DNA of 64,000 nucleotides from Lunularia cruciata (taxonomy: Eukaryota; Streptophyta; Marchantiopsida; Lunulariales; Lunulariaceae), in assembly GCA_948567375.1 (NCBI GenBank), contig OX419758.1, positions 6,949,001-7,013,000 of the forward strand. The letters are read 5' to 3'. Below the pieces are notes generated by a model. That model saw only the letters and a list, made by a program, of their open reading frames with translations, was not told the origin of the DNA and ran no database searches. Shown piece by piece: positions 8,471 through 62,490 of this stretch; the stretch's first letter is position 1; every line of letters begins with the position of its first letter. The position numbers and the translations under genes are program-made.

Positions 8471-10098
8471 CACAAGTCAAAAATCACCTTTAGTTGGAAC
8501 ATAGATCCGGTCCTCATGGAATAAAAAGGCCTCCTTGATGGAGAAGGTGTTGTACTCCTTATTGCATGCCATAAGGCAACCATGTACCATTTGGAAGAAG
8601 GGATCTTGGTGTAGAGCTGACTGAAACTTGTTTTGGACCTTGGAGTCAACAGACACCATTGAAATTGCCGCTGTGATGAGAGGAAGAGACTTCAAATCAG
8701 GTTGTCGTGATAAAGCATCAAGGATGACATGGAACCGACCTGGTTTCTACTCAAGTTTGATGTCATACAGTTGGAGTTATTCCTCCCATTGATGATGTTG
8801 ACTCTTCATGTGTTCCAAGTGTAAGGTCTGTCACAATGGTTTGTGATCAATTCGCATGATCACTTGTTTCTCCAAGAGGTAATGCCTCTATACCTTGGTG
8901 GCATATACCATTGCAAGTTGTTCTTGATCTCAAGAAGAGTAGTTTTTTTCAGCCGTATTGAGTCGGCAAGACACAAAGGCAATAAGATGGAGTCCATCTG
9001 GGAATTCTTGTTGCAGCACGGCTCCAATTGCAAAGTTAGAAGCATCAAAATCAACCATACAGGGTAGTTGAGGATCATATGGTTGAAGAATGGGTCTTGA
9101 AGACACCATATGCTTTAACTTCTGGAATGCTTCTTCATGCTTGGTGGTCCATTGGAAGCTCAAGTTCTTTCCCAAGAGGTCAGTCAATGGTGCAGCCACA
9201 TGAGCATAATAATGGATGAACTGTCGGTAAAAACTGGCCAATCCATTGAATGCCCGTACTTCTGTAGCATCCTTTGGGGTCGGCCAATCAGTAATGGCCT
9301 TGATCTTCTCTTCTTCCATCTTGATCCCCTCTGATGAGATCTTATGACCCAAGAAGGTAACCTCCTTTTGCCAAAAGGCACACTTTGACTTCTTGCAGTA
9401 AAATTTCCATTGTCGTAGTTGTCTTAGGACTTGTTGCACATGATTCACGTGTTCTGCCTCTATCTTACTATAAATTAAGATATTGTCCAAGAACACCACC
9501 ACGGACAGATCCAATAGTCCATCCAACACCCGATGCATCTGATCCATGAAGACTACAAGAGCATTAGTGAGTCCGAAAGGTAGAACTCTCCACTCAAAAT
9601 GCCCATACTTTGTACGAAAGGCATTCTTTTTGCACATCCTCTCTCTCAATGGGAATTTTCCAATAGCAAGTCATCAATCCAAGGTAAGGGATATGCATTC
9701 TTCACGGTTTGCTTATTGAGCCCACCATAATCAATACAAAAATGAAGTCCTCCATCCTTCTTTGGAACAAATAGTACCAGTGCTCCCCAAGGAGAGGTAC
9801 TATGTTGTATGAAGTCCTTCTCCAACAACTCTATAAGTGTTGTTTGCAACTCCTCCAACTCCTTTGGTGAGAGCCGATAGATCGGTCTACTCACTAGAGT
9901 ACTCCTTGGCAATAACTCAATCTTGAAGGGCATACCTTGATTGGAGTGTAATCCCTTTGGCATATCATTTGGAAACACGTCCGCAAACTCCTTAACTATC
10001 CAATCAACCATTGCTTGATGAGGCTCTTGGCCCTCCTCCAATTGTTCTTGTGCAATCGGCTTGATCCACACCGTGAATACAGACTTATCTTCCTCCAA
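8470..10098 (-). pseudogene. Ty3 reverse transcriptase and RNase H
   Basis: 9646-10098 covers the RT start, with [27 protein letters not shown], and [20 protein letters not shown] (finger and palm blocks). 8930-9649 continues with FRTKYGHFEWRVLPFGLTNA and the catalytic box FLDNILIYS, where the second Asp of the Y/F-x-D-D motif is Asn. Then follow KCAFWQKEVTFLGHKIS, the connection region AFNGLASFYRQFI, and the start of RNase H (MVDFDASNFAIGAVLQQE, SCRLNTAEKNYS). The RNase H end and the tether to integrase lie at 8470-8900 in broken frames. The D-to-N change and the frame break near 9650 make the enzyme inactive. Confidence 0.9.
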
Positions 10099-10304
10099 AG
10101 CTTGCTCTATGGCTGCTTTACTAACAAACTTCTCTTCTAGGGACTCATCTCTCTTCCAAGCTTACTCCATGGTTGCCTTCTTGACAAACTTCCCATCTTG
10201 GGACTCCACTTCCTTCAAGGTTTGCTCTATGGCTACCTTCTCAAAAAACTTCCCATCTTGGGATTGACTATTCTTAGGTGTCTTCCTCAGAGGTGCCAGA
10301 CAAC

Positions 10305-10700
10305 CTAATCAGAAATTCCTACCTTGGTCTTTAACTTAATTTGGCATTGGGTCCAATCAAATTGAACCTTATGACGTTCAAGCCAAGGTAGACCCATAAT
10401 GATATCATAGTGTAGAGGTGCCACTACAAACCTCATATACTCCAAATACTCCTTCCCAATCTTGAAGGTAACAAGATGCGAGGTGCGGAATGAAAAACCC
10501 TTTCTACCATCCGCCATCATCAAACTACTTCGAATCATTGGCTTGATAGGAATACCCAATTCCTTTGCTACTTGCATAGACATGCAATTATCTGAACTTC
10601 CAAAATCAACCAAAATCCTAAAACCCCGATTAGATATCATACCTTGCAAGTGAAGCAAACTTGCATCGGTCGAGCCTTCAATCCCATTAGAACTAATCAA
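10305..10700 (-). pseudogene. Ty3 aspartic protease (retropepsin-like)
   Basis: The minus-strand frame contains FRILVDFGSSDNCMS, the retropepsin catalytic loop D-[S/T]-G-[S/A] with Phe at the second position. It continues to ELGIPIKPM, LMMADGRKGF and HYDIIMGLPWLERHKVQFDW, the last being the typical D-x-I-L/M-G-x-D/P-W-L block of plant Ty3 proteases. It lies between gag (higher coordinates) and RT (lower coordinates), the normal order. Flanking linkers are frame-broken. Confidence 0.85.
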
Positions 10701-10719
10701 GCTCCCAATAGGCGGCTCA

Positions 10720-11627
10720 AAATCTCCTACTTGGATTCCTTGTTTCCCTGATCATTCAGCTCCATGACCTCCACTTGGGTAACTTGTTGAGGTCATCCAT
10801 TCTTGAGTGGACATTCAACAATGCGATGCCCCAATTGGTGATAAATAAAACAACCACCATTTTGTTGCAGTTTCTCTTTATCTGCTATGCCAAGTGGTCT
10901 TCGTTGAATGACATCAATCTCTATGGGTGCTGGCTCCTCCACTTGTGTATAGTGTATTGGTAGGCTATGTGGAGGTCGAGGTCAAGACCAAGTTGGTGCC
11001 ACCAAGGAATCAAAATGTTTGGCCAACCGCATGGCTTCCTCCAAGTGTTGTGGCTCTTGCATGGTTATCTCTAATTTGGTTCTCGCCTTCAAGCCTGTCA
11101 CAAATTGATCCAAAGCTTCACCTTCCAATATATCTGAATTTGCATGATGGTGTTTTGGAATTGCGTGATGTAACTTCTTACAGAACCAATCTGTTTCAAC
11201 TCTGCTAACTTATCTCGTGCAGTGTGGCATTTATAGCTTGGAACCAACTAATTATTGCACTCTTGAATTCTACTCATGTCAAGATTGGTGCAACAATTTG
11301 TTGTTCTGCTCGCTCCACTTGGAATCTCCACCATAGCTTTGCTACTCCATCCAATTGGCTAGAAGCCAAGAGAATCTGTTTTCACTCATCTTGTATATTG
11401 GTAGCTTCAAAATAACATTCACAATCAAACAAAAAATTCTCCATTGCACCCAAAAGATTCTTGCCTTCAAATACCTCGGGTTTAGGGAATCTGATCCGAT
11501 CTTCCCCTTCTCAAATTGGTACTCTCTCCACTTGCTCTAGTCATCAAAGATCTCATTCATCCAACAATCAAGTAAGGTGCTCAATTTGTTGTTGCATAGC
11601 AAGGATAACATCGGGTATTGCCGCCAT
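10720..11627 (-). pseudogene. Ty3 gag remnant
   Basis: An ATG at 11627 opens MAAIPDVILAMQQQIEHL, a gag-like N-terminal helix, soon interrupted by stops. Near 11040-11140 the minus strand reads LDQFVTGLKARTKLEI and PQHLEEAMRLAKHFD, the conserved gag motif of chromoviruses. About 300 bases between the 5' LTR and this ATG form the leader. I could not identify an intact CCHC knuckle. Many frame breaks. Confidence 0.7.
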
Positions 11628-15798: not shown

Positions 15799-15805
15799 AG
15801 GTCTT

Positions 15806-16680
15806 TTTATGGCTCTCCTACTTCCCTTTACTACCAGCATAGTGGTTCACAGGCGGGAATCACCGTCTTGGAGTCAACTTTTGGTACACGTCAGGGAGAT
15901 CCTTTGGGGGAGCCCTTATTTTTAATGGCTCACTTTAGAGCTCTCTTATCTACTACTTTGGCCATGCAAGGTTGTGTATTTCCCTCCTTGGCAGATGATT
16001 CCCACATCGTAGGCCCTATAGATCAGATCAGGCACGCCTTTGACTACTTGACTACCGAGCTACATCTAGTAGGCTTGAGAGTCAAGGTGTCAAAGTGTAG
16101 TGCATGGTCCCCTTTAGGTATCCCTCCCCACCTTGAGCTTCTAGAGGGGTGTATCACATCCACAGATGGACTTAGTGTTCATCCACAGATGGAGTGCCAG
16201 TAGGATTGGAGGATTTTGTCACACGCTTCTTAGACGTTGCCCTTGCAGAGGATGTTCTCCATGTGGATGACCTTCCATTACTAGGAGATCCGCTGGTGGC
16301 ATTTGGTATACTCTCTTCTAGTATAGCTCGTCGACCATCCTACCTCATCCGTACAGTTCCTCCCTTCACCGTCCTTCCTATCACATCTGAGAGCATTTGA
16401 TAGGAGGATTATGGGAGTCTTTGGTGATATTATTGGACTAGGGACCTTTGAGTGTGTGACAAGGGATTTGGCACATAGACAGACGGCTATGTGGATCTCA
16501 TGTGGTGGGGTTGGCTTGCTTTCTATGGAAGATACTACACTTATAGCATTTTTGGGTAGTTGGGCTCTCTCATCACCCCTACTTTCCTCTCATTTTGTGG
16601 TTGTTGATAGGCTGGTTTTGGGGACTTATGTGACAAAGGTGGAGGGAGGATCCTTTTCTCTCCAAACGTTATTGCGGTAG
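15806..16680 (+). pseudogene. LINE A reverse transcriptase
   Basis: The ORF at 15868-16203 reads FGTRQGDPLGEPLFLMAHF (RT block 4) then GCVFPSLADDSHIVGP (the A-D-D catalytic box) and GLRVKVSKCSAWSPLGIPPH (block 6). 16194-16400 continues with EDFVTRFLDVALAEDVLHVD and PLVAFGILSSSIARRPSYLI; 16411-16680 with MGVFGDIIGLGTFE and TAMWISCGGVGLLSMEDT. The catalytic Asp pair is intact. The protein would copy its RNA at nicked target DNA. The fingers subdomain is missing through truncation, so no active enzyme is expected. Confidence 0.85.
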
Positions 16681-16944: not shown

Positions 16945-17632
16945 ATGAGGTTTTGCCTAGGTTTAGTCCACCCATCTACATGTTCATTACTCACTTATGA
17001 GTATGGCTCTACACTAGATGCAGCAGCGGTCCATATGACATGGTGTCCTTTTGGAGGACAGAGGATAGCTACCCATGATGCCATTAGAGACATAGTGTTT
17101 GCTATGGCACGAGAGAGTAGACACTTGGCTTGGAGGGAGCGTTCGTATGCCATGCAGACAACACGTGTCAGGACAGGCTTATACTTGGTCCGAGATGATC
17201 AGGTGACAGTAGCGGATGTTGTGGTTCCGGATCCCTACGCGGGACACAATTTTGGATGGAGTGATTACCCATCCCCCTAGATGGGCGGCAAGTGCAGCAG
17301 CAGGTCGCAAGGTCTCCAAGTATAGGGGCATGCAGCAAGGTCACCTCTTCGTTCCTCTAGCCTTGGAGTTATATGGAGCGATGGACACGGCATTTGACAC
17401 ATTTGTCAAGGAGGGCGCGAGAGCTTATCATGTTAGGGGTCAAGGGGTACCACTCTCACTCTCATACTTTGTAGCATATTTTAGACAGCGTGTGTCCATT
17501 GCTCTACAAAGTGCAGTGGCTGGTGCAATCCATAGGAGAGCAATCACATTAGGTGATGTTTCTTTGGATGCTCTAGTTGTGTGTAGACTGTACGACTTGC
17601 ATAGGGCGGATATCTTATTTGCGGTAGGGTAG
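16945..17632 (+). pseudogene. LINE A C-terminal domain (CCHC plus endonuclease-like)
   Basis: The 16945-17280 frame has a Cys/His patch (one Cys replaced by Tyr) with WCPFGGQRIATHDAIRD, then WRERSYAMQTTRVRTGLYLV and DDQVTVADVVVPDPYAG. After a frameshift, 17216-17632 gives GHLFVPLALELYGAMDTAFD, LSLSYFVAYFRQRVSIALQ and GAIHRRAITLGD. The last blocks are the characteristic C-terminus of a family of plant LINEs. The alternation of hydrophobic strands with V-A-D and P-D acidic positions suggests a restriction-like endonuclease fold, but I cannot confirm catalytic residues. Confidence 0.6.
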
Positions 17633-23586: not shown

Positions 23587-25690
23587 ATGGTGCACACATC
23601 TTCTCTTGCTCTCCACTCTTCTCTTGGTTCCAATATGTCTATCCTTACATCCACACATGCATGTTACAATTTGCTTGAGGAAGCCAAGGTCGGAGTAAAT
23701 ACCATTGCTTTGACAAATGGTTATGCCCCGATGAGTCAACTCACGCTAACTGTTGGAAACAAGCCAGGAGGCTTAGTTAAAAACAGATGCTTGACTTGTG
23801 TCCGTGGCGGTAAGCCCACCTGTCAAGCACATGTTCAAAGTACCTCCACGCTCTGCCAAGTGTGTCCTTTCCAGCTGATTATTTGCAAACAGGAGAAATA
23901 TAGTGATAGTTATCCAGAGTGACCAATGCAGAACACAACCATGAAGCAGTTGAAAATGTGGCTGTATATACAGCTGAAAGATCCCTCTCCATGATTGAGG
24001 TTGAAACTGCTCACAACCTGAGATGCATCAAAGCACAACCTTGTGTTGTTTTGGGTGTCTTACAAGAACACAACGCTACCAACCTCTCAACAACTCAAGA
24101 CATTTATAATATCAAGAAGGTCAAGAAGAGAAGGATGTTGGCTGGCAGATCAACAAGTGAAGCCTTATTGGATACCTTGATTCTAAGGGATATCCAACAT
24201 GAGATCAAATGCAACCATGCTGGCAATCTTACCTGCCTTTTCATCTTCCCTAAGTCAGCAAAGAACAATGCCAAACTATATTCAGCTAACAAGGTCTTTT
24301 CCATTGACAACACAAACAAGACCAACCAATATCAGATGGCTCTATTGCATGGAACAAGCGTGACAATGACAAATAAAACATTCACTTTGTTCTATTGCTT
24401 TATGCAATTTGAGGCTGAAGAGTTCTACACCTGGGCAATGCATGATCTGGACAGATCCTTTGAGCAACTAAGCATCAATTCTCATGATGCAGTTTTTGTC
24501 CAGATCGTGAACTGGCATTGGTGAATGCCATATCCTTGGTATTTTCAGATGCAACCACAATATTGTGTGTTTGGCATATCAACAAAAATGTGCTGGCAAA
24601 GCAATGCTCTGGATTTGATTCAAATGATGCTTAGGAAGAGTTCATGGGAGCATGGCAAGCCGGTATCAACTCTTGATCAGAAGCTGAATACAAGGAACAT
24701 TTAGATCAGCTCTCCCAAAATGTCCTTGCAGCAATATTTCCCTACCTTTTGACAACATTGCTTTGCTCCAAGGAAAATTTCATTTTGGCTTGGATTTTCC
24801 ACTACAAACACTTTGGCCATATTCCACATCAAGAGAGGAAAGTGCTCATGCAGCTCTAAAGAAATGGTTGCAGGTGTCTATTGGTTATATGCTTGGTTTC
24901 TATTTTCTGCTTTAAAGAGCATGCAATGAGTAGGAATGCAACCTTAGTCAGACTAATCACATCCAATAGATGCATAATCTCATTGAACTAAGCCATCCTT
25001 TGTGGAAAAATGTCAAGAAAAGCATCTCCTGCCATGCCATGAAGCAAGCCTTGAAATATTACTACAAATCTCTGGCACCCCAAGATGAACCATGTAGCAA
25101 CATTTTACCTCAACAATGGGCATACTTCGTAGCCATCACCTCAAAAGAATGTTGGCGCAAGTTCTTGTTGCAATCGCCTTTACCATCAATGACTTTGATT
25201 GGCATTGGTGGCTAAAACAACTAGTATCTATGATGCTCGCGCCTCCTATAGCATCCGCACCTTTGGCTAACTCAATAGAGTAGATCCAACAATGATATGA
25301 ATTGTTGATGGTGCATTAGCATCCTCTCATTGTGCACGCCCTTATAGAAGTTGTTGACCAGCCCCTTGAGGTGCAAAATCCAGCAATAGTAGCAACATGG
25401 GCAAACCTACTAGATCAACACATCGCAATCCATTTGCTTTTGAGTATGTAGAGAAATCACAACAATGGTCACAACCTCAAGCTTAATGGCAATCACAACA
25501 AGACCAACCATTGGAGATAAGATGCCATTGTCATATCTGCAAGGAAAGTGGTCAAAACACAAGAATGTGTCCTTAGTATGGAGTCCAGTTGCATCATCAT
25601 CTAATACCATCCATAATGTAGCACCTTCAAGAGACCTAGATCCCAATGCCGGTGACCAGGTGGCCAATGCTTGGCCTTTGGTGTTTTTTT
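23587..25690 (+). pseudogene. MULE (Mutator-like) transposase pseudogene
   Basis: The N-terminal part (23587-23922) has RCLTCVRGGKPTCQAHV and CPFQLIICKQEKY, the zinc-binding FAR1/WRKY-GCM1-like region of MuDR/FAR1 proteins. After a frameshift at about 23920 it reads NAEHNHEAV, then a helical stretch ending IYN. The catalytic core begins FSIDNTNKTNQYQMALLH (first Asp of DDE). After another frameshift near 24500 it reads PDRELALVNAISLVFSDAT and ILCVWHINKNVLAKQC, the signature around the second Asp. A C-terminal knuckle CHICKESGQNTRMC lies near 25520-25560, with Gln in place of the His. Several stops (TAG at 24632, TGA at about 24677). I could not find terminal inverted repeats. Immobile relic. 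Confidence 0.82.
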
Positions 25691-26733: not shown

Positions 26734-28190
26734 GTGGGTGGTGTTCCGTGGGTATTGGCACTTGGTGGTGTTGGCACTTGGTGGGGTACTTGCGGTTGCG
26801 ACTTGCGGTTACAATTTGTGGTTCCGGTTTGTGGTTGCAGTTGCGGTTACTTTGTCATGATAGAGTTTGTTGGGGATTCTAGAGGAGTTAGCCTTGCAAT
26901 ACACAGTGCATTTACTCAGAGTGACACTCAATATCAGCTTGTATCTCAGGTCCCAATGAGGGAGTAGATTGGCTCTGAGTTGGAGTTTGACACAGGAGCT
27001 GATTTAGTTGAGAGTGCACTTGGTGTGTCCGCACTATTGTTGTGGGATATGGACTAGATTTATGGGGCCTCCAAAGGCCCTAGGTGTTACTTTGGTATAA
27101 TGGGTACCATTGAGTTGGATGACTTCATCTAGGAGTTAGATAGTTGGTGTGATCTACAACAAATGCAGAACCCAACTTTGTTTACACCTTTCATGGCATG
27201 GAAGGGGTTGTTTCAGCATTTGGAAGGTCTACCAATGGATGACTACCATGAGTTCAAGAGAGCTCATTTGGAGGAGATTGAGTTATGGAGACAATATTGG
27301 TCTCCAAACTTTGTTTCTATCACTTTAGGTTTGGTGGCCAAGAGTAGATTGGCTGTACCTACGAGTTCTACCTCAAGTAGTGTTGGTAGAGCTAGTGGAG
27401 GTGCACTAGCTGGAGATAGTGCTACTACGAGTGGAGGTATTGCTATAGGAGGTGGTGTGGTACTAGGGTTCAACCCCTTGGTGGAGTTCTTATTTTGTTT
27501 GAGGCAGAACTACCAGGGAGTGCAAATTCACAAGCTGAGGAGCTTGTAGGAGTTCCAGCAAAAGGCTAGAGAAAGCCTATGCAAGGCATACACTTGCATG
27601 AGGTGGCTGATCAGTTTCACTCAGGGAGTTACTGAGGCCCAAGCAGTCCAATTTTGGTATGGGATATTGGATAGGGAGTTGCAACGTAGAGTTCATGATG
27701 CTATGTTGTTACAAGCTACTTTGCATACTTTGGCAGTGATCTTTGGTTTGGTTGAGCGCATTGAGCTCAACATGGTGGAGGAGAGGGTGGTGACATCTAG
27801 ATTTGGTAGGGAGACCTCATCCATGGTTATGACTTCTTCTAGAGTGCAGCAAAGTGCACCATGCCTAATTGGTTTTTGAGGACAGGGTGGATAGCTCAGA
27901 TCCCATGGAGCGAGTGGAGGGCTGAGTGGAGCTAGACCCTTACTTTCATTTTTGGGTCAATAGCAGCCAATGAGTAGTGGTATTGCTTGTTGGATTTGTG
28001 GTGGACCTCACCGTAGGAGAGAGTGTACTGATGGCAGCAGACTTGATACCTTTGGTGCATCGCAGCCAGCATAGAGGCAGTGTGAGCATTGCCACAAATT
28101 TGGTCACACTAGTGACCGATGCTTTGACCTACACCCAGAGTTATGGAGTGGTAGGGCTATTATGGCAAGTAGTAGAGGAGCTCTAATTCA
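26734..28190 (+). pseudogene. gag region with two CCHC-type knuckles
   Basis: Frame 26734 runs through stops with recognisable capsid-like text: FMAWKGLFQHLEGLPMDDY, EFKRAHLEEIELWRQYW, later YTCMRWLISFTQGVTEAQAV and FWYGILDRELQRRVHDAML, which resembles the gag motif preceding nucleocapsid. Two Cys/His boxes follow: CWICGGPHRRREC (27988-28026, one residue short of canonical) and CEHCHKFGHTSDRC (28081-28122, perfect C-x2-C-x4-H-x4-C). They would bind RNA for packaging. At least six TAG and two TGA codons interrupt the frame. Confidence 0.75.
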
Positions 28191-28699
28191 TGGATGATGG
28201 GGTGGTAGAGGTGGTGGTAGAGGATCTACACCTAGTAGAGGTGCAGTACCTGCCCTTACTTCTGATATAGCTATGGCTACTCAGATTGAGCAGTTGGAGC
28301 AGAGATTGGCTAGTATAGCCATTGCTTAGAGGAGGTCAGATTCAGGTGCTGAGGCTTCCACCTCATATGTTGGTGATAGAGATGCTTTGGACTTTATGTG
28401 CGGATCAGCTTAGGTGGATGCATCTACAGCAATGACTAGGAGTGCAGTACGTGCTCCAGAGCCTAGAAGAGCATCAATGGAGTTGGACCTACAGAGAGGA
28501 GAGGTTGGGAGATAGGTCAGACTTCCCTAGTCTTTCATGCTATCTGAGGCATTGCAGACAATATCCATGGGTCCTAGACGTCCTAATGCAAGTGTGGTAG
28601 GTGGTGATGGAGTGCATGATTGACTACTTCCTAGTCAACCACCTGCTACTACACAGACTGAGTCTAGCACAATGTTGGGAGTGGTTCAGTTGATTATGT

Positions 28700-29640
28700 G
28701 GTGCCCTTTATTTTCAACCAGTGATATGTTTATATTGGGAGTTGACCCAACCCCAATGTTCCGGTTGGCTGCCATGCTTTATGAGAGTAGGAATGATGCG
28801 GTTGCTACTACTAAAGCAAAGGTGGCTGGTTGTAGAGCTGACTTGGTTGAGGAGCATTGGATCCATTCAACAACTAGTGGTTTATGGCAAGCAACAACAT
28901 CTATGGAGGAGTTGGTAGTTAGACCGGCCTTTGAGAGAGCGTGGTTCACATCTAGTGTTGTCCTATTGGATAACCAAAGAGGGATTTTCCACTTGGTGGG
29001 ACCTTCAAGGAAGGTCTATACACCATAGAGAGTCTTGTTAGACTGTGGTGCACAACCCCTTAAGTTGGGGAAGGCTGTAGTAATTGGTCTAGAGTTATAG
29101 AAGACCAATGTGGAGAGGTGTCTATTTGAGATCCAGACATCTCTAGGTGGTCATTTGACATAGTACATCACACGTGGGGAGCTTGTTGTCCAAGTTCAGC
29201 CGGGTCATCCGATTGATAGCTTGGTGGTGAGAGCTCAGGCTATTGCGACAATAGCTAAGTCATATGATGTGCTAGTTGGAGGAGTAGTGTTATACCTCTT
29301 GGGTTTCAACATTGACTATTGGGAGAAGACAGCCTCCTATAGACCAGGTTGGCAATCTAGTGAGGGACGGGTCTGTTGCCTACCAATACGCTTTAGTAGT
29401 GGTAGTCTTGGCTCACTACAGTCCGTGACCATGGCAACATCAGTTTTATCTTTCAGTGGTATAGTTACTTGGCCTGGTGACATGTTGGAGGGCAACGCCG
29501 ATGCAAAAGATACTCCAATACCAAAGGAGATCACTCAGATTTGGAGTACAAGTGGGATTGTTCCATCCACCTTGGATGTTCCATTGTGGAGTTTAGAGGA
29601 GGCATTGCAACAACATGCAGATCAATTGGTGCAATAGGCT
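28700..29640 (+). pseudogene. Aspartic protease region of the methyltransferase retrotransposon
   Basis: The key loop is RVLLDCGAQPLKLGKAVVIG, with the catalytic Asp codon at 29041-29043 and Cys where most proteases have Ser or Thr (D-C-G-A). Downstream are FEIQTSLGG and SYDVLVGGVVLYLLGFNID, then YWEKTASYRPGWQ and CLPIRF; the D-V-L-V-G block corresponds to the second conserved strand of retropepsins. It is in frame with gag and the methyltransferase. Four TAG stops lie in or next to it (29026, 29098, 29161, 29635, approximate). Confidence 0.72.
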
Positions 29641-29748
29641 TGGAGTGGAGCCTTTGTAGCATTAGGAGATGATTGTGAGGATGAGCCTCCAGAGTCAATT
29701 ACTTTGACACCTTTGGATACCACACTCATTGCTTGATAGTATCCAATA

Positions 29749-30735
29749 GAGGGGATATGTCTATTGGAGTTGTTTGGTGGGATTAGCACTGGACTAGTTG
29801 CAGTATTATAGGTGGGTATACGAGTACAGAGGTACTTGTATGTAGAGAGAGATGAGACTGCTAGGTGAACCTCTCTACATCATGTGGCACACTTGGCCAA
29901 TCAGTATCCGGAGTTATTACTGATGTCAACAATCAGAGGTTACTAGAAGGCCCTACCAGTAGACATTTCCTTACTGGTGGTGCATGATCTAAAGAGACAT
30001 GGGCCTATTCACTTGGTGATTTTTGGATGGCCATGTTAAGGACATACACGTGCTGGCCGAGGTTTGGGTCTTCAAGATCCTTGTTCTGGTGTGTTTTGGA
30101 AGATGTTACAAATGCTACAACATCTCCAAGTTCATCAGTCCGTTTCTCCAGCTTACCTTTTGGAGAACATTCCTTTGATGGGTGATTCTTGCACCAGAGT
30201 AGTGGTGAATACACATTAGTTCCATTCTTGGATGGGACTTGCTATATTGTTAGATGCAGCTTGAGTGGGATCATGGGCTCATCATCTTTGTCTTTTGTGG
30301 ACAAACCTCTTATCCAAAGAGGTTTTACAACGTGCATATGATGGGATTCAGTGACTTGACCACATCCTTGTTAATGACATCTTGGATGTTGGGCGTCAGT
30401 CTTAGATAGTGGTAGTGGCTAATAGGTCACCTATGGTAGTGGTGAACCTAGTTGGATAGCCTAGAGCCAAATTTCCCACACTCATGAGTTTCCCAAGCTT
30501 TCATGCTTTTTGAGAGGGAGGACCTAGACTTATTTGGGACTCATAGTTACAGCAATTGGTGGAGCCCAATGCCGATGAGAGAGAGCACATGATGGGTTTT
30601 TGCACTGGTATTGCCGCTATTCCAATAATGTTAGAGGCATCTAGGTGTCAGGTGTTAGGTTAGGCTATGGACCTAAACTGTTTGACTTGGATTATGAGCC
30701 TTGGCTTGGCAAAGCAACATAGGATGCGCTTGATA
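29749..30735 (+). pseudogene. Cytosine-5 DNA methyltransferase domain (DNMT3-like) within gag-pol
   Basis: In a single frame over about 329 codons, all core C5-methyltransferase motifs can be read. Motif I is ICLLELFGGISTGL (SAM binding, 29755-29796), then RYLYVERDE (motif II). Motif IV is GPIHLVIFGWPC, with the catalytic Cys TGT at 30034-30036 followed by TAA where families usually have Gln or Asn. Motif VI is YLLENIP (Glu codon 30163-30165). Motif VIII is VGSWAHHLCLLWTNLL, a late block is DEREHMMGFCTG (motif IX neighbourhood), and motif X is RCQVLG-stop-AMDLNCLTWI. The G-I-x-T-G-L motif I, the R-Y-x-x-x-E step and the A-H-x-x-x-x-x-W-x-N motif VIII resemble DNMT3-type enzymes more than DNMT1/CMT; that placement is by eye. 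Twelve in-frame stops (7 TAG, 4 TGA, 1 TAA) and no net frameshift. The intact parent would have transferred methyl groups to cytosine C5. Cellular DNMT3 genes exist in mosses; this one sits between protease and RT. Confidence 0.87.
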
Positions 30736-31180
30736 GGCATCACCACTTGGAAATTGTGAGCCCTATGCCTATTGAGACAATTCAGGCACATGTTGAGGGC
30801 GATGGACCAAGTGGACATGATATTCTTGGGACAAAGTCAGTAGCTACTTAGGAGAGTGGTCTACTTGGAGTCCATCTAGGTGAGCTTGGGCTACTTGGAT
30901 TACACCCTTGGTCCACTTGGGATACAACTAGAGGACATGTGGAACTTGTAGCCAGAGTGGAGGGAGTTTTTCACACATAGGTTAGGACCTCTAATGGTCG
31001 GAGGCATGACATTATTGCTCCCAAGGGCCCATTGTAGCAGCCAGTCAGTACGTCTTCCACTCGTATGACAATAATAGAGGATACTTGGGAGCCAGATCTT
31101 GGACCCAAGCTTACTGGAGAGGAAAGACGGAGGGTTTGGAGGTTCTTGAGGAGCCACACAATTTTTTCTCCTTCAGTATG
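30736..31180 (+). other. Linker between methyltransferase and RT
   Basis: A poorly conserved stretch with several stops. Scattered text such as HHHLEIV-like and GPKLTGEERRRVWRFLRSH (about 31100-31160) resembles the RT-proximal tether of Ty3 elements. No additional domain recognised. Confidence 0.4.
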
Positions 31181-32628
31181 AAGGATTTGGGTGCTCTGAA
31201 GGGACCTGGTATACAGATTGAGCTGACTAGCAATACACCAGTTTTTTTACGTCCTTATCTATATAGTGATCTGGAGAGGACATTGATTCAAAGCCGGAGT
31301 AGTGACATTTTTGAGGCTGGTTTGGTGGAGGTCTCACATGGAGAGTATGCATCAACAACAATGATGCCAACCAAGAAGGATATGCATGCAACTACATAGA
31401 TAGGTAGATTTGTGAAGATTACTATCCTATCAACCGACAGACCAGGGCTGATCGGTATGCCATGCCTACATCAAAGGAGATTTTTGATGCAATTGGGCAT
31501 GCAAAGGTCTTTAGTACTTTGGATCTTCAAGCAAGATATCATCAATTGTCAATCAAGGAGGAGGATAAGTCCAAGACAACATTCTAGGTTATTGATCCTC
31601 ATGGCAAGGATGTGTTATATCAGTGGAGGTTCTTACTGTTTGGGTTAAAGAATGCTCTTGTTGAGTTCCAAAGGGCAATAGATAGGATCCTAGCTGGATT
31701 GAATTTTGCTCGGTGCTATATTGATGACATTTTGGTCTATAGCACTATTGTGGAGGAGCATGAGAGACAATTGTTGGAGGTGTTTGAGAGGTTGAGATCT
31801 CATGGACTCAAATTACATTTTGGGAAGTGTAGGTTCTTCCATGAGCAGGTTGAGTATTTGGGTCACACTATCTACTCTGAAGGACTTGGTGCTTAGCAGA
31901 CCAAGGTGGAGGCTATTGCACATATTCCTTAGCCTATAGATGTGAGTAGAGTGCAAGCATTCCTTGGTTTAGCAAACTTCTATCACTGCTACGTTAGAGG
32001 ATTTAGTGCTATTGCCAAGGCCTTGACAAAGCTGACCAAGCTTACACAAGAGTGGTGTTGGGGAGATGAGCAAGAGAGAGCTTTTGTAGAGCTCAAGGAG
32101 AGGTTGACATCTGCTCCTATTTTGAGGATACCGATCAGAGGATGACCATTTCAGGTTCATATTGATTGGAATATGCTGGGGCTTGGAGCAGTGCTCACCT
32201 AGCATGATGATAAGGAGAAGGAGTTTTTGGTGGCCTATGCTAGTCGCTCCAACAATTCAGCGGAGGCAAAGTATAGTTCATATGAGGGAGAGTGCTTGGC
32301 AGCCGTTTGGGTAGTAGCGCATTTCCAATGTTACCTATTTGGTAACCCCTTCACTCTCAGCATTGATCATCAGCCGTTGAAGTGGTTGATGGAGTCCGAC
32401 AAGCTTTCAAGGAAGCTTGCACGATGGGCTTTGATTTTACAAGAGTATGATTTCACCGTTGTTCACAGACCTAGAGTGGTGAATTGTGATGCACATGGGT
32501 TGAGTAGAAACCCATGTCCTAGCCAACAGATCAAATCGGAGCACATTGGCATGGTGAGACAGATGAGGAGATGGTGCCAAGTTGGCATGCATTGGCCTTT
32601 TTGTGTATATTTTTTGAGGCTTTGGTAG
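31181..32628 (+). pseudogene. RT and RNase H of the methyltransferase retrotransposon
   Basis: 31085-31399 (shifted frame) has MKDLGALKGPGIQIELTSN and FLRPYLYSDLERTLIQSRS. 31390-31590 returns to the main frame with KVFSTLDLQARYHQLSI (first catalytic Asp). 31612-31896 has FLLFGLKNALVEFQRAIDRI, CYIDDILVYS (intact catalytic pair at about 31721-31729) and GKCRFFHEQVEYLGH. 31942-32145 is the connection (AFLGLANFYHCYVRGFSAI). RNase H follows: QVHIDWNMLGLGAVL, VAYASRSNNSAEAKYSSYEG, and SIDHQPLKWLM...SDKLSRKLARW to 32520. Stops (TAG at about 31589, 31894, 31933, 32200) break it. Confidence 0.9.
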
Positions 32629-32889
32629 TATCTCTCTCAGCGCATACAAGAGGAGTTATTGAGGTCATAGATCCAGAGAGTGAAGATATTTTTCTAGTTT
32701 AGCAAGACATTCATGATGATATCTTAGTGATGAACTATCCTTGCACCGGTGTTGTGGGTGGCACAGTTGGGGCCAAGGAGAGAGACCGTGTTCTTCAACA
32801 AGCTAAATGGTTTACATTGGAGGAAAAACACCTTTTGCGTATATGGGAGGATGGTAGAGTGCGAGTAATACAACTTCCATCTCAAGATC

Positions 32890-33650
32890 ACAGTTGGTCC
32901 ATCATGCTCATGAGAAGCTAGGACATTTTGGAGTAAAGGATACATATAGTTTACTCCAGAGTCAATATTGGTGGCACGATATGCAGACCGAGGTACAACA
33001 ATTTGTTGCCACATGTGTGGTTTGTGACCAAGTTAGAGCATCATTCAATGCTCCTACACCATAGTTACACCCATTACCTATCATGGGATTGGGTAACCAT
33101 TGGAGTTTGGACTTTGCTGGACCTTTACTGCTAATTGTGAGACATCATCGGTATCTCTTGGTGATGGTAGAGCACTTCTCCAAGTAGATTGAGTTGGTGG
33201 CACTTCTTGACAAGTCGAGTGAAGGGACATATTACTCATTCATGTATTGAGTTCTTAGTCATTTTGGTGCACCAATTGAGGTTTTGACTGATTAGTGTAC
33301 AAAGTTGTTGGGGGAGTTTTAGGTCTTGTGTGACAAGGCTTTGATTGATCATTGTACTACATCCTGAGATCACCCTAAGGTAGATAGCTTAGCAAAGAGA
33401 GTGGTTCAGATGGTGAAGAGAGGATTGCAAAAGTATGGTTTGCAGCGAGGCCACTTGGGAGATTGGGATCTCCAATTACCTTGGTTGGCCATGGGCTATC
33501 GATTCAACCGGCAAGCCTCCTTATCATCCTTCTCTCCTTACTTCCTACTATATCGATGAGATCCAGATTTGCCTATAGCCATTTGTCAAGATGCTACTGT
33601 AGTTTTGGACTTGGATGACCCAAATGTATGGATGAGTGCATGTTCCTAAC
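32890..33650 (+). pseudogene. Integrase of the methyltransferase retrotransposon
   Basis: In the +1 frame relative to pol: VHHAHEKLGHFGVKDTYSLL then FVATCVVCDQV, the HHCC zinc-binding N-terminus. NHWSLDFAGPLLL carries the first catalytic Asp, HFGAPIEVLTD the second. The third block reads VDSLAKRVVQMVKRGLQKYG, where the catalytic Glu before R-V-V-Q is Lys (AAG). It continues to LQLPWLAMGYRFNRQASL and SFSPYFLLYR. Several TAG stops and one TGA. Inactive as it stands. Confidence 0.85.
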
Positions 33651-33789
33651 GGGCAGAGATCTCTTAGAGAGTGATGCCGATGGCCTTTGAGGACTTGGTG
33701 ATTGCTTTGCATAGAGATACTTTACGCTATGCTACCATTCAAGGAGGAGGTATAGACCCTCGATCCGTCAATTTCATCCAAGATACTAT

Positions 33790-34140
33790 GTATATCTATA
33801 GCAGACAACACCAATGATACTTGATGTTTCGACATGCCACTCTATCTTGAGAGTGTGGGAGGTTTTGCCATCTGGAGTCCTTGTGTTAGATGGATGTGAT
33901 GGTGTTGTTTGGAAAGATCATGTGCGCAATTGTGCGCCATGCCACCTCCTAAACATTGATGATACTATGGACCCAAACTTGGTACTTGTACGTGCAGGCT
34001 TGAGGTGTGTGTTATGTGGCTCTTTTGGTGGAGCTACTATTATGTAGTGTGTGATAGCTGTTCGAGAGGATGACATATGGCATGTATGACTCCTCCCCTC
34101 ATGGTGGTTCCTCAAGGATAGTGGTTATGTCTTAGATGTA
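33790..34140 (+). pseudogene. PHD zinc finger at the C-terminus of the retrotransposon polyprotein
   Basis: The ORF 33814-34047 reads STCHSILRVWEVLPSGVLVL and GCDGVVWKDHVRNCAPCHLL, then LRCVLCGSFGGATIM. A one-base frameshift near 34045 leads into VVCDSCSRG, a TGA, then HMACMTPPLMVVPQG, a TAG, and WLCLRCT. Together this gives the PHD Cys4-His-Cys3 layout: C-x2-C (34006-34017), C-x2-C, H-x2-C, W-x-C-x2-C. PHD fingers read histone H3 tails. In retroelements, such a C-terminal reader is the analogue of the chromodomain in chromoviruses, so a role in integration targeting is plausible. Confidence 0.8.
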
Positions 34141-34302: not shown

Positions 34303-34867
34303 TAGGGGGGCAATTATGGCACTTTAGAGTCTATGTATGACTTATGTGTGAGTTGTGCTCCTATAGTGTATGATGTTGATAGTGATGTATGTTGTGCAGC
34401 GATGTATATATGCACAATAGTTGTCACGCCATTTCTAGTGTCGCATCTAGATTGCTTGGACACTAGAGTTGCAGGGATAGTAGTTAGAGTTATTTCAGCA
34501 GTTTCTCAAAGATTACTTTCTAATGGTCAGATTTTGTGTTCGGGGTACTGACTTCATGGTGGGGCCCACCGTCACTTTGCACCGTTTGCACCATCGAGTG
34601 TGTCATCAGCGGGACCGTTAGGGTTTCAGACCTAGCTCGCATCCAAGGGTATACTTTCAAAGTGCAACTCCAGAGAGCTCACTTCTCTGATGTTCGAGTT
34701 CTTGGCTATGGTGGATAGAGGCCAAAGAGCATCACCTGGATTCTCTTAGCTAGAGTGAGTGTGGCTTGACTATAATCAGTGCCCATTTGTTTGCAGTTTA
34801 TAGAGTGACAAATCGAGTATTGATCTAAGTTGAGTGGATTCGAGAGTTATAAACAATCTGATTATTA
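34303..34867 (+). repeat. Probable 3' LTR of the methyltransferase retrotransposon, with polypurine tract
   Basis: ACTAGGGGGGCAA at about 34301-34313 is a likely polypurine tract. Directly after it TGGCACTTTAGAGTCTATG (34317) starts a 551-base unit whose first ~110 bases reappear at 34868 as TGACACTTTAGAGTCTATG. Spacing and position fit an LTR followed by the beginning of another LTR. The unit does not end in the usual CA, and no copy is present at the 5' end of the element, so the call is provisional. Confidence 0.5.
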
Positions 34868-34981
34868 TGACACTTTAGAGTCTATGTACGACTTATGTGT
34901 GAGTTGTGCTTCTATAGAGTATGATGTTGACATCAATGTATGTTGTGTAGCAATGTATATTGTGCAGTGATGTATATGCGC
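34868..34981 (+). repeat. Partial second copy of the LTR-like unit
   Basis: Shares CTTATGTGTGAGTTGTGCT, TATGATGTTGA and repeated TGTATRTTGTG words with 34317-34425. It ends where LINE C resumes (CAACAATGATGAGG at about 34982). Probably the stub of a tandem LTR created by recombination or a deletion at the LINE junction. Confidence 0.55.
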
Positions 34982-46139: not shown

Positions 46140-49100
46140 ACATTCAAAAGCTAGAAGAGACTGGAGATCCCACAACTCGGAGGACACCTCTTTCATTGTA
46201 GGTCTATCCGCAGGAGAACGCTCAGTGCATCTTCATGCCAATAGCGCTACACCGACAATTGACATCTTCACTTCTCTCGCACTTTCATAACTCCTTCAAA
46301 ATCCAGAAACAATCCAGAAACAAATGTAACGCATCCGTTTCAAACAGATGACCTGCCATCTCCACAAGAGAGTTATCTCTGTCTCCTCTCCTAGGATCCA
46401 ATGGTGGTTGCGCACTAAGTATTTCGAGCAAAACCACTCCGAAGCTGAACACATCACTTTTTGGTGTTAACATGAAGGTGCAATAGTACTCTGGATCGAT
46501 ATACCCTGGAGTACCTTGGATAGCCATTGTAGTGACATCCGTGGCATCCAACTAAGCAAATTTGGAAATTCCAAAATCTGCTACTTTTGCGTCAAGATTA
46601 CCCCCAGGAGAATGTTTGCCGATTTAACATCTCGATGGTAGATAGGTGGATTCGCCGCCAAATGCATGTAGCCAAGTGCTTCTGCTGTCTGGTTTGCAAT
46701 TTTTAATCGTTGCATCCAAGTGAGCCCCACTCCTCTTGAACCTCGGAAATGCTCTTCAAGTGTTCCTTGGGCCACAAACTCAAAGACAAGAGCGGCAGTG
46801 TTCATTGTTAAACAACAACCCAGAAATGCAACGAGGTTCTTATGGTGGATCCTCGATAAGATCTGAACCTCGTTCAAGAACTGAGTTTTACACTGAGTTG
46901 AATCGATTTTTATAGTCTTTTTGATAGCCACTCTCTGACCACTGAGTGAACCCTCGTAAACAAGACCAAAACCTCCTTTGCCAATCACAGAAGTCTCTGA
47001 GAAGTCGTGAGTCGCTTCACTCAGATCTCTCAAAGGAATGATTCGAGATATAATCTGCCCGCTCTCCATAGCTGAAAGCAAATCTGGATCCAAAGTACTG
47101 TTTCTGAAAGTCCTCCGGTGATGTACCAGTGCGTACACCCCTGCACTGAAAACAGCTATAGCTGCAAAGGAACTCAACAAAGCCACTGAAATCTGACTGC
47201 CAACTTTGACATCTTTTGTTGGTTGCATCACGAAGCCCAAAGAATCAGGAAAAATAGAAAGAGTTAGAATCGGTTAACTGCTCATTAAACTCCAGAACCA
47301 TGTACAGCATAAGGAAGCGTGTCAAACCAACTAGAACTTGTTACTTACATGATGAACTTTGAGCTATTCCTACCTCGAGGACACGGTTGAAGGTTGAAAC
47401 TTTCGCTGGCACTGCAGAGCCTGACATTGGATCTGAAATCGTAAGTGTAGTTCAAGCCCACTGGAAACGGAGGTAAGCGGCCGGTAAAGTTGTTGAAGGA
47501 CAAGTCCAAGGTTCGTACTCCAGCATTCCTTGCCAGATCGACAAGACTTGTGGGCACTTCCCCGTTGAAGTTATTATGAGACAGATTTAACGTCTCCAAC
47601 GATGGCAGAAGATCGAACGCGTCTCCAGGTATCACTCAGAAGATTTTGACTCAAATCAAGGTACACTACTTTGGGAAAATCAAGAGTTGACTTCCCAATT
47701 GATCCTGTCAACTTGTTGTTACTCAGTTGGAGTATGGTCAAATTTTGCCCGCCTTCAGCGCTGAGCTGTGGTAAACTTCCCGAGATATTATTCCTAGACA
47801 GATCCAAGACATGTGCATGTCTCGGATAGGATATAAGTATCCCGCTGATATTATTGTCACCAAGCAGAAGTACACCGTCTACTGAGACATTGTACTGGTC
47901 AATTCCACCAGTTGCCTCCGGTGTCTCGACTAGGTGAGTTTGGTTGTGAGATAGATCCACTCGAGCCCGTCCACAAGTAGCAAACACCTACCCACCACGT
48001 CTCTCGAAGTCTCCAACAAAACGCTCCCCGTTAAATTATTATTTGTAATGTGGAGATAAGGTGTAACGAACTCATCTAGCGTATCAGATACTGAAACAAC
48101 GTTTTGGAATTCGGCTATGATGAGGAGAAAAGCCGGTATTGTCCCTGTGAAGTTGTTGGACCCTAGACGTAAACTTGCGAAGCTCTTATTCTTCTCCCCG
48201 AGAGGTTCCAAGGAACCATTGAGTCTGATCCCAGATAGGTTCAGAATGTGTAGGTTTTTCCCACCTTACCGGAGTGGTTCTAAGTTTCCTGTCAGATGAT
48301 TATCAGTTAATGAAAGCGTCTCCAGTTCGAACATGCCGGTTAAAAAACTTATATTACCAGCCAGCTGATTGCCATCCAAATGCAGGTCTGTGAGATTGTG
48401 AAGATATGACAAAACACTGATGTCTCCGGTCAAGTTACTAGAAGACGCATCCAACGCTACTTGGGGAAGGCCAGCAAGAACTGAAGATCTCCCAGTGACA
48501 CTGAGTTGTTGCCTAGCAGCAAAACTTCAAGCAGTGTTGATCCTCGAATGGCGTTCATGTCTCCTACCAGCTCATTGTTCCTCAAATCTACAGCTTGAAG
48601 CCTGTCAAGTCCCTGCAGAACACTCAGGTTGCCCTGTAACGGATTGTCGGATACGACCAGGAGATAAAGATTCTTGCAGTCCTTCACGTCAACCAAGTCT
48701 CCTTGTAGATCGTTACCAGATAGATCTAACTCCTTTAAGGAAACGAGTCCCTTGATGCCCAGCAAACCACCTACAAAGCTGTTATGATCTAAATACAATG
48801 CCCGGATACTGGTGTGATTCAGGAACTCTAAATAATCAAGTGTACGCTCTAGTTGATGTAACTAAGTTCAAGTACAGTTAAGTTCTGCAAGTTGCCTATA
48901 CCAGGCGATAATGAGCCAGAGAAATGATTATAACCCATTTTGAGCTCTGTCAACTTCTCACAATCACAGAGCTCTTCAGGGATTGAACCACTAAGAAAAT
49001 TTTCTCTTATATCTACCCAGGATAGTTTCTTCAAGGAGCCAACGGCACTCGACAATGAACCAGTAAAATGATTCCGCATGAGATCAATTTCAACGAAGTC

Positions 49101-53552: not shown

Positions 53553-56500
53553 TTACTTTGAGGTCCTCCTGTCTGGGCTAGTAGGCCAGTTCGTACTTCC
53601 TGGAGAAGAGGCTGGTCTTCCCCGGGATGATACTCCTTCTGATGGTGTAAGAACTTGCACCACCTTCTTACCAGGTGTAGGACTTGAAATCACCCCACTA
53701 GCATTATACCTACCAAAATTGGTACCATCCATTGGTGGCAGCTCACCTCTGGACTTAGGTCGAGATTGCACCATCTCGAGCTCCTGAATCAATTTCTCTA
53801 AATACTTTATCCTCTCTACTTTGGAGGCAAGCTCAGTCTCCAATTGCACGACCCTGTGACGCAAGTTCTCCTGTTCCATCTGTTGGCTTAGGGTTAACTG
53901 GTCTTCTATACCCTTTGCCAAAGATGTAAGTTTTCTGGCTGTGCTAGCTCTGTGCTGAGAAGCACTGCCGTCTGCTAAGGCTCCTTTCTGTTGGTTCAGC
54001 TTGATAATCTTCAGCTCACGCCGGAGTTCGTTCAGCTCTTTAATCAAGGCCACATTGTCCTGCATAATGTGTAGATGATTCGTGTGGTGTGCCTCCATTT
54101 CTTTGTGAAGCTTGCGGCGTAGACCAGCAACCTGTAATAATTGATGAAAATACGTTGCTGAAAAGTCCAGTAAGAGAATAATTTAACTACAACATCTAAC
54201 CATGTCTTCAACGCGAAAGTTGTGTGTTCCTGATTGAAATTTATCTGCAGATAAGTGTTAGCATTACCGATCGTTCCAAAAAGTCCCGTTGCCTGCTGCT
54301 GTCCCTGTCCATCTCTTCATCAAGTGGAATGACACTGACTTTGTCTTCAACATACTTTCTGAAGAGTGCTATGACCGCAGACTTCAGAGCCTCGGGATCC
54401 TGCATGATTCCGTTAAACCACGTCAGAACATATGAACTCACTCAAGTGAGAGGACCTTAGATTCGTTTCCTGTAGCTCCTCTGCTGCTTCATAGGATCTC
54501 TGTGAACTCCCGAAAGAAATCGATAATCTGAAACTCTACAATTTGGCTGCATACATACAGTTTGTGAGAAGCAGATGCACATGTGTGCAGCCTTGATCAA
54601 GTTGCTCGATGACAGGTATCAACATAGCTACGTAAGTCCGTCAAAAGCAAACTAGTTTTCAACAAGAACAGGGAAGGAAATCTCAGACCGGCCACTAGTC
54701 CAGAGTCCAACGAAATATGAGTTAAAACCTTACTGTGATAAGTTGAGCAAGCTCGTAGTAGTCGTGTTGGAAGTGCTTGAGAGTTGTGGTGCATAGAACA
54801 TTTGCTCGTCTCAGAGCGTCTTCCTCATTTTGGACTCCTTGCAGCTTTAGGTTAAGTTGAGAGATGGCCAGATCTTTCTTACCACTCATCGCATGTGATC
54901 TGCATCGTCAATGACCGTTCTGTAAACTAAAAGTTGAATTGGACAACTCTTTAGATCTGGAAGAGAGAAGCGGAGAATCAGTGGACGGTTTGGAAGGCAA
55001 CATATAGGTTGCCCCAGCTCAATCACCAAATTACCGCAATTCGCTTCTCCTCCAGGAAGAGCACTGTTCCAAAATTTTCAGGTTCCTAGAAGATACGTGT
55101 AGAATAGAAATTTTCCAACAGAAGGAACTGTTTAAGAACAAGGAAAGGACCTCTCCAATTCCACTTCCATCTTTCTTATCTGATCTTTAGAAACTTGTAG
55201 TTCGGCTTCTCTGGGTTCAATCTGCTCGCTCAGATCCTTGATTTTGAAGTCCAGCACAAATTTAAATTTTTCAAGCTCCTGACAGTTTTGATCCAAAGTT
55301 GTGTTAACGCTCAGAACATAAATTGCATATGCTCTTGACCAGCTGTTGAACAAGCGATGTGATTGCAATGGACAAACAGGAAGCTTGGATTGCTAAAATA
55401 AAACCATCTCAAGAGAAATCACGTCTGCCCTTCGGGACCCTCAAGCCCCATTGTTGTTTGTTTTGTGCCATGTGAGATCCACAACATCCAAGACTATACC
55501 TTACCAGGTTCTTTCGCTTCATTTCATAGATCCGTCTCTCTTTTTCTCCAATAGTATCATCTCTCTCTTGTATGTCCTTTTTCAAACCACTGCACGCAGT
55601 ACCAGCCGCAGTTTTTGACATAACGGAACGTGAATGTGGACTTCACACGCATGTTATCATTGAAAGGAAAACTAAGTTGCTCTTACTACGTTGATAGCAT
55701 ATTCATCAGTTCTAAGGCCCGCAACTGCAGTTATTTCATTGAGGGTTAATGCGAACAAACTGATTGATTCGAACTCATAAGAGAAAGCAGCTAGTGCCTG
55801 AAATCTGGCTCGTGAAGTTGAAAGTTAGAAAGAAGTACGAAATATCGCGTTCCAGAGAGCCGATGATTTCATAGAGCTCCTTCTTCTGCTGAAAGAGCAG
55901 CAAAAGTTCCTCTCTCTGCTCCTCATTTTCCTTCTGGAACTCATTGAACTTCTTTTTCATTATTCCATTCTCACCTTTCAACCTTGTCACCGTCTCCTTC
56001 TCTGCTACAATCAAGGCATCATACCTGAAGGATGGATTGAACTAACTTAGCCCAGAGACGCCTTCTTAGAGCAAGATTACTCCAAAGTTACATTAAAAAA
56101 ATGGTACATTACGGTCTTGATCACTAAGCCATTAAAGATAAGCCCTAAAAAGCATCCTGAAGGAGGGGTGATTTGATTCGAGTTTAAGTGATGCCAAGGT
56201 GGATATTGACACACCATGGATTTCTACAAATGGAGAACGAAGTACGGGCAGGACAGTGGTGCATGCTGTCCAACTTAACCCTCTTATCCAGCAGTTCATT
56301 GATATTTTCAGATGTACTGGAGAGAGTCCAGAGTTTCACGCTATTCACCGCCGTTTTATAACTTTAGATACACAAGACGCAACATTCTTCTTGCTAGGCC
56401 ACTGTGGATACACCGTCGCATCAGCCGGGAATTGAACCCGTATATGTTCCATTGAAAGGGCATGTTCTACCCCTCCACAACAGATGCTTCGCAACAGATT

Positions 56501-62042: not shown

Positions 62043-62490
62043 CACTGCCACCCACCTAGCCCAGCTAAGAAAGAGTGAATGGCTGGAGTCTTAGAACATA
62101 CTTCCGGCGGCAAGTCATCTCTTCACCAGCTCCGTTGCTCTTCCATGTCTCCCCTTCTTCTTCCTGAACCCTCTATGGAGATCCTGCAAATTGGGCGATG
62201 ATAAACCGAAAGTCATGTATTGCTGGAGGGGTGCAAGTATCATGGGTAGTTGCAGACTTGCTTGCGGTTGGGAGTTCGTCACCTCACTTCTAAGTACTAC
62301 TTATACCTTGTTTTAATACCAAGACCTTAGCAAGGAGTTTCAGTGTGAATAGGGTTAAGATTCAGGGGTTACAGCAGTGTGTCTCGCCAATTTCCTTGTG
62401 TGGAAACTCCTGTAGTTCGATTTTGTTTCTCGTCTGTGAACTTCTTCGGACAACGACTCCAGATTCGGAACATATCAGATTCGAAAGCCC
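62043..62490. promoter_or_regulatory. Upstream region of CFAP57
   Basis: Would contain the 5' UTR and promoter. No clear TATA box or other motif could be assigned by eye. Confidence 0.3.

Follow-up and report, generated by a model that had tools for sequence, protein, structure and literature searches.

A decayed Ty3/Gypsy element occupies positions 27049-34130 (+) of the window, that is, of the whole 64,000-nucleotide stretch of Lunularia cruciata DNA that was analysed. Its recognisable parts are given below, with reference to three related proteins: P0046 (Mp_4g09160 of Marchantia polymorpha, 1278 aa), P0063 from Sphagnum and P0065 from an ENA contig.

27049..31037, +: putative ORF1, a decayed Gag-protease-DNMT fusion, in frame 1 to 30729 with its tail in frame 0 (tblastn of P0046)
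27049..28350, +: Gag carrying a pair of CCHC-like zinc knuckles (by eye); 50.9% identity to P0046 residues 1-415, E = 1e-122
28903..29370, +: retroviral-type aspartic protease with a DxGAQP motif; 50% identity to P0046 residues 592-749
29749..30735, +: predicted C5-cytosine DNA methyltransferase domain, DNMT3 class, in frame 1 with 12 in-frame stops
31136..31390, +: pol start upstream of RT, in frame 2; 58.8% identity to P0063 residues 982-1066
31402..32541, +: reverse transcriptase and RNase H, in frame 1 (RVT_1, 5.3e-25; RT_RNaseH, 9.2e-31)
32900..33550, +: integrase (H2C2 zinc finger and rve core), in frame 2 (Integrase_H2C2, 2e-14); 64% identity to P0063
33838..34020, +: integrase C-terminal tail, in frame 1; 37.7% identity to P0065 residues 1553-1613
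34041..34130, +: second half of a PHD finger, read in frame 0 (PF00628, 24.4 bits against a cut-off of 24)
34313..34863, +: possible 3′ LTR, with the initial 97 nt repeated at 34864-34960 (90%)

The order of domains is that of Ty3/Gypsy elements (PR-RT-RH-IN), with RT, RNase H and integrase detected in this order by Pfam and the protease placed upstream by homology; the element is a dead Ty3/Gypsy copy. Pfam gave no match in the decayed Gag region of this copy. Two pol profiles had been suggested for verification in an initial annotation of this DNA: RVT_1 was matched (5.3e-25), whereas the rve core of the integrase scored 1.7e-4, under the Pfam cut-off. The integrase is read in frame 2. The PHD finger at 34041-34130 was absent from that annotation; the first half of the finger can be read by eye just upstream, in frame 1. 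A purine-rich stretch precedes the possible 3′ LTR (34313). A search of the window for a 5′ LTR found none, and no tRNA-iMet-type primer site was found above chance (5 matches against 5.3 expected).

A second Ty3 pol fragment lies at 8687-10751 (-), with RT and RNase H identified by Pfam at 8687-9670 and the rest read by eye. Its RT is 34% identical to that of the DNMT element, and a comparison of its surroundings with the DNMT proteins of the relatives described below gave no DNMT match. An open frame at 23910-24524 (+) encodes a MULE transposase domain (PF10551, 38.5 bits), and those at 15799-16203 and 17213-17632 (+) look by eye like retroelement remnants and had no Pfam match. Receptor kinase exons are found at 46581-48861 (-), the kinase domain being identified by Pfam and the leucine-rich repeats by eye. 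A CFAP57-like cilia gene extends over 53553-62090 (-; C-terminal exon by eye), which fits a plant with swimming sperm. When its exon at 61431-62090 was searched against annotated genomes (E ≤ 1e-30), the 4 matches all came from liverworts: M. polymorpha (86% identity), Riccia fluitans (82%), R. sorocarpa (79%) and Calypogeia fissa (69%). Within that search the result speaks against a conifer, a fern or a flowering plant and makes a complex thalloid liverwort distinct from M. polymorpha the most likely host.

Relatives of the element and the end of ORF1

Translated with X at stops, the window methyltransferase matched 43 proteins at E ≤ 0.01 in a database of 5.8 billion proteins (best match: E = 1.6e-127, 60% identity over 98%), and a search admitting longer proteins gave 21 matches; with the methyltransferase as bait, the set is biased to carriers of this domain. 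Organism names were attached to 21 of these 64 matches (43 + 21), and all 21 are bryophytes belonging to Marchantia, Riccia, Calypogeia or Sphagnum. The 10 named proteins of the first set come from Calypogeia fissa, Sphagnum troendelagicum, S. jensenii, Marchantia paleacea, M. polymorpha and Riccia sorocarpa; the 11 of the second from M. polymorpha (10) and Sphagnum fallax (1). Riccia belongs to the Marchantiopsida and Calypogeia to the Jungermanniopsida. The names of three M. polymorpha gene models place them on chromosomes 4, 6 and 8. No protein named as Klebsormidium nitens was found among the 43 + 21 matches. DNA of the relatives was also sought in viral contigs with P0002, A2 and P0046, with no match, and of 19 stretches matched in prokaryote genomes 0 were confirmed.

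In a tree of 53 rows, which has one outgroup row (DNMT3A) and several long branches and was used only to place the window in the bryophyte clade, the window copy falls in a clade of 35 rows (100/98), beside M. paleacea (95/79). This clade contains all 17 named rows in the tree, the other 4 named proteins being too short for entry. Outer rows are 42-46% identical to the window (P0011, P0013-P0015, P0020, P0028, P0056-P0060 and P0062) or 30-38% identical (P0034-P0036, P0064 and P0065). The liverwort and Sphagnum members thus appear to form one clade of elements with a DNMT3-class methyltransferase in their own coding sequence. One Riccia row is found among Sphagnum-type rows, with weak support (83/78), and transfer is therefore possible as an alternative to common bryophyte descent.

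The methyltransferase had been proposed to be an integral part of a Ty3 gag-pol, lying between protease and RT, and the architecture shared by the relatives bears this out: P0046 has the order gag-protease-DNMT, and P0049, an M. polymorpha gene model that may splice out a stop, combines a protease motif with DNMT, RVT_1 and RNase H, in this order, within a single protein. Pfam protease matches, under cut-offs, were found in 5 of 14 long relatives. P0046 aligned with 27049-30729 in a single frame at 49.6% identity (tblastn), and because of this collinearity Gag, protease and methyltransferase constitute one fused frame, in the intact M. polymorpha protein as well as in the decayed copy. The initial annotation had extended the common frame to RT and RNase H. 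Its claim holds for gag, protease and methyltransferase over 27049-30729; however, between approximately 30.73 and 31.40 kb the reading of the window runs through frames 0 and 2, and back to frame 1 for RT/RNase H, so that the frame shared by RT with the Gag side is in this copy partly a sum of indels.

A stop at 31035-31037 lies 44 codons from a conserved HPW, in the frame of the pol start, and a second one occurs 19 codons before it in the decayed tail. The distance from HPW to the protein end is 38-45 residues in 10 relatives, and the stop at 31035-31037 probably marks the site where the relatives end ORF1. We placed 34 of the proteins examined in the bryophyte clade. Of these, 12 stop at a distance of 89-95 residues from a DLNC motif near the methyltransferase end, 7 continue towards RT, 11 end elsewhere and 4 have no exact DLNC motif. 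Six of the 7 RT-ward proteins are annotated gene models, which may skip a stop; the remaining one, P0042 (JGI-sourced, unannotated), continues from the DNMT tail past the ORF1-end point into pol. From these few sequences we infer that ORF1 is probably a Gag-protease-DNMT frame, the enzyme closing the Gag-side ORF, and that pol may be expressed via read-through of the ORF1 stop. In the window itself, the stop at 31035-31037 is followed by the pol start in the same frame and is a candidate for such read-through.

Class, conservation and decay of the methyltransferase

The C5-methyltransferase motifs quoted in the initial annotation can indeed be read in frame 1 at 29749-30735. Motif IV is broken by a stop right after its cysteine, both arginines of motif VIII are changed and the 12 in-frame stops interrupt the domain. 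A check against the Pfam profile PF00145, also suggested at the time, gave a divided answer: the window copy alone scored 14.9 bits, under the cut-off of 22, but the cut-off was passed by 12 of the 14 long relatives scanned (of 21 found; 27-47 bits) and by 3 of the 4 shorter relatives scanned.

As for the METHYLTRANSFERASE kind by sequence, P0002 compared with solved structures matched DNMT3A at 6e-12, and DNMT3A was the best PDB match both by sequence and by profile. A profile built from 21 sequences scored 70.6 bits against DNMT3A (E = 1e-18), 43.5 bits against 4onj (named DNA methyltransferase in its record; we take it to be a DRM), 37.8 bits against DRM2 (1e-8), at most 32.4 bits against DNMT2-type enzymes (2e-6 for DNMT2) and at most 30.7 bits against bacterial ones. 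Capture from bacteria was rejected, bacterial methylases scoring far under DNMT3. The order of the methyltransferase motifs is canonical, unlike that of DRM. The DNMT3 ancestry suggested earlier is therefore retained at class level, by profile, but not in motif IV, which reads PCQ (Q in 27 of 28 relatives) where the DNMT3A alignment has the PCN expected of DNMT3. The enzyme is almost certainly a C5-cytosine methyltransferase, DNMT3-class by its profile scores, this being a class label and no claim of DNMT3 orthology, in a tree with DNMT3A as the only outgroup.

Catalytic residues are well kept in the 28 relatives with a full domain: the C is present in 26, the P in 27, the E and the N in 28, and the two arginines of RxR in 25 and 26. 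In 11 of 13 comparisons, all between proteins other than that of the window, the DNMT showed higher conservation than gag and protease. With P0046 as reference, it was the most conserved of the three in 7 out of 7 comparisons in which gag or protease was comparable (the fragment P0003 had neither), the identities being 90.5% for DNMT, 72.6% for gag and 65.0% for protease with P0045, and 51.9%, 25.1% and 43.7%, respectively, with P0059. Protease exceeded DNMT in 2 of the 6 outer-clade pairs. Between the window and P0049, identity is 58.6% for DNMT and 61.7% for RT-RNase H. The better conservation of DNMT than of gag and protease, together with the retention of the catalytic residues, suggests selection for enzyme activity.

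C-to-T (18) and G-to-A (24) together account for 42 of the 52 changes that could be typed uniquely at conserved sites of the window DNMT. The CpG observed/expected ratio is 0.19 in ORF1, 0.29 in the RT-integrase part and 0.53 in the possible LTR; the left and right flanks of the element have 0.61 and 0.28, respectively, the CFAP57 region has 0.60 and the neighbouring DNMT-less Ty3 has 0.32. Low CpG and transitions are the ordinary decay of methylated DNA and are no proof regarding the enzyme. Strand-biased editing is disfavoured because both strands are changed (18 C-to-T and 24 G-to-A), methylcytosine decay being the simpler explanation.

Possible roles of the enzyme and comparison with known systems

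DNA methylation is a main weapon of plants against transposons, and a transposon that carries and conserves a DNA methyltransferase offers a direct test of the purpose of such an enzyme. Judged on sequence, the locus is probably a dead copy of a DNMT-carrying Ty3/Gypsy family whose enzyme may mark the cDNA of the element. The methyltransferase would be made together with Gag, released by the element's protease, packed in the particle, and would methylate the double-stranded cDNA of the element itself, either ahead of integration or during it; new copies would thereby arrive with host-like CG methylation. Self-methylation of the cDNA is our leading idea, put forward tentatively because of the Gag-side placement, the conserved catalytic residues and the published CG activity of the SymbioDIRS DNMT3, which methylates CG de novo in yeast (PMC5890265). 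A yeast assay of the Klebsormidium Gypsy DNMT, in the same paper, saw no activity and was considered inconclusive by its authors (PMC5890265). Methylation of the cDNA may shield it or may limit further transposition.

Rather than marking cDNA, the enzyme could act on host chromatin, guided by the integrase and the PHD finger so as to methylate DNA near insertions. A PHD finger is indeed found downstream of the integrase in the window copy, and the SymbioDIRS DNMT3 in yeast is described as methylating CG de novo in genome and plasmid (PMC5890265). However, the methyltransferase is on the Gag side, apart from the integrase, and the finger was seen in one copy only, and we regard such a role as unlikely. 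We give somewhat less credit to self-limitation, proposed in the discussion of the same paper (PMC5890265), in which the enzyme would aid host silencing of further copies, with slow spread and less harm to the host. The predominance of C-to-T or G-to-A among the typed changes of the window DNMT (42/52) would agree with it, but the same decay is expected of any methylated plant element, and the DNMT-less Ty3 in the window is also CpG-poor.

It is improbable that the domain has a structural or nucleic-acid-binding role within Gag, or acts as an RNA methyltransferase, without methylating DNA. Its placement on the Gag side would suit such a function, but no fewer than 25 of the 28 relatives retain the catalytic residue at each position of P-C, E-N and R-x-R, and the profile scores higher against DNMT3 (70.6 bits) than against tRNA enzymes of the DNMT2 type (at most 32.4 bits). 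Very improbable is an antiviral accessory domain, the hypothesis of Morozov et al. (PMC6338049) that a transposon methylase guards host cells against DNA viruses: the paper argues that the trait was lost on land, an argument undercut by its presence in liverworts and mosses, and nothing in the present data points to virus DNA. A chance passenger, i.e. a host methyltransferase gene fused to a single copy or a mis-assembly, might be suspected from the single copy in the window, but its probability is negligible given the same fusion in Marchantia, Sphagnum and further sources, and this common architecture rules out a host gene beside a transposon or a chance fusion.

The inventory quoted for M. 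polymorpha comprises one MET, two CMTs and two DRMs and no DNMT3 (Schmid et al. 2018, PMC5784723); the element adds a methyltransferase coding sequence to these five enzymes. One could imagine that in complex thalloid liverworts the retrotransposon enzyme is the only DNMT3-class methyltransferase, a selfish element supplying the missing de novo activity of its host, but we consider this improbable. If true, the enzyme may add to the host methylome, for example in the sperm or the sporophyte, as well as marking the cDNA of its element. The question of the enzyme's purpose becomes testable with the unbroken copies in M. polymorpha, a genetic model whose methylomes have been published; in 2018 the same question rested on dinoflagellates and one alga.

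Retrotransposons with a DNMT are known, as the initial annotation noted, from dinoflagellates and a charophyte alga, namely Symbiodinium and Klebsormidium (PMC5890265). KnitGypsy-Dnmt3, a Gypsy element of Klebsormidium nitens with a DNMT3 (de Mendoza et al. 2018, PMC5890265), resembles the present family in being an LTR Gypsy whose coding sequence includes a DNMT3-related methyltransferase, with key residues conserved and no DRM-type rearrangement. It differs in being described from one charophyte, in having its DNMT in the Pol polyprotein ORF and in its DIRS-like repeats, whereas the bryophyte family is found in land plants, its DNMT would end the Gag-protease ORF, and the window copy has a PHD finger downstream of the integrase. 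SymbioDIRS-Dnmt3 and SymbioLINE-Dnmt of Symbiodinium also combine a retrotransposon with a DNMT, the DIRS version being CG-active in yeast, but they belong to other retrotransposon classes and are independent captures according to the authors (PMC5890265). P0065 is a Ty3 element protein with a related DNMT (33% identity; RT 37%), but its DNMT lies between RNase H and integrase (an RT-RNase H-DNMT-integrase polyprotein), which could reflect either a move or a second capture. PpDNMT3b of Physcomitrium shares the DNMT3-class catalytic domain and canonical motif order but is described as a host gene (Yaari et al. 2019, PMC6453930). An orchid Ty3/Gypsy element with an m6A RNA demethylase is likewise a plant Ty3 with a captured nucleic-acid-modifying enzyme, although the enzyme is different, is encoded by an additional ORF and occurs in a flowering plant (PMC9289625).

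Methylase-encoding transposons have been said by Morozov et al. 2019 (PMC6338049) to be absent from land plants, with tracheophytes as example; the bryophyte elements speak against this claim and may mark DNA in such plants. Our literature search, covering mainly the main texts of freely accessible papers, found no bryophyte DNMT-bearing retrotransposon among the matches listed. A DNMT3 in a Gypsy element was already known, and what is new, as far as this search reaches, is its occurrence in bryophytes, together with the putative Gag-protease-DNMT layout, the spread over liverworts and mosses and, in the window copy only, a PHD finger in the same element.
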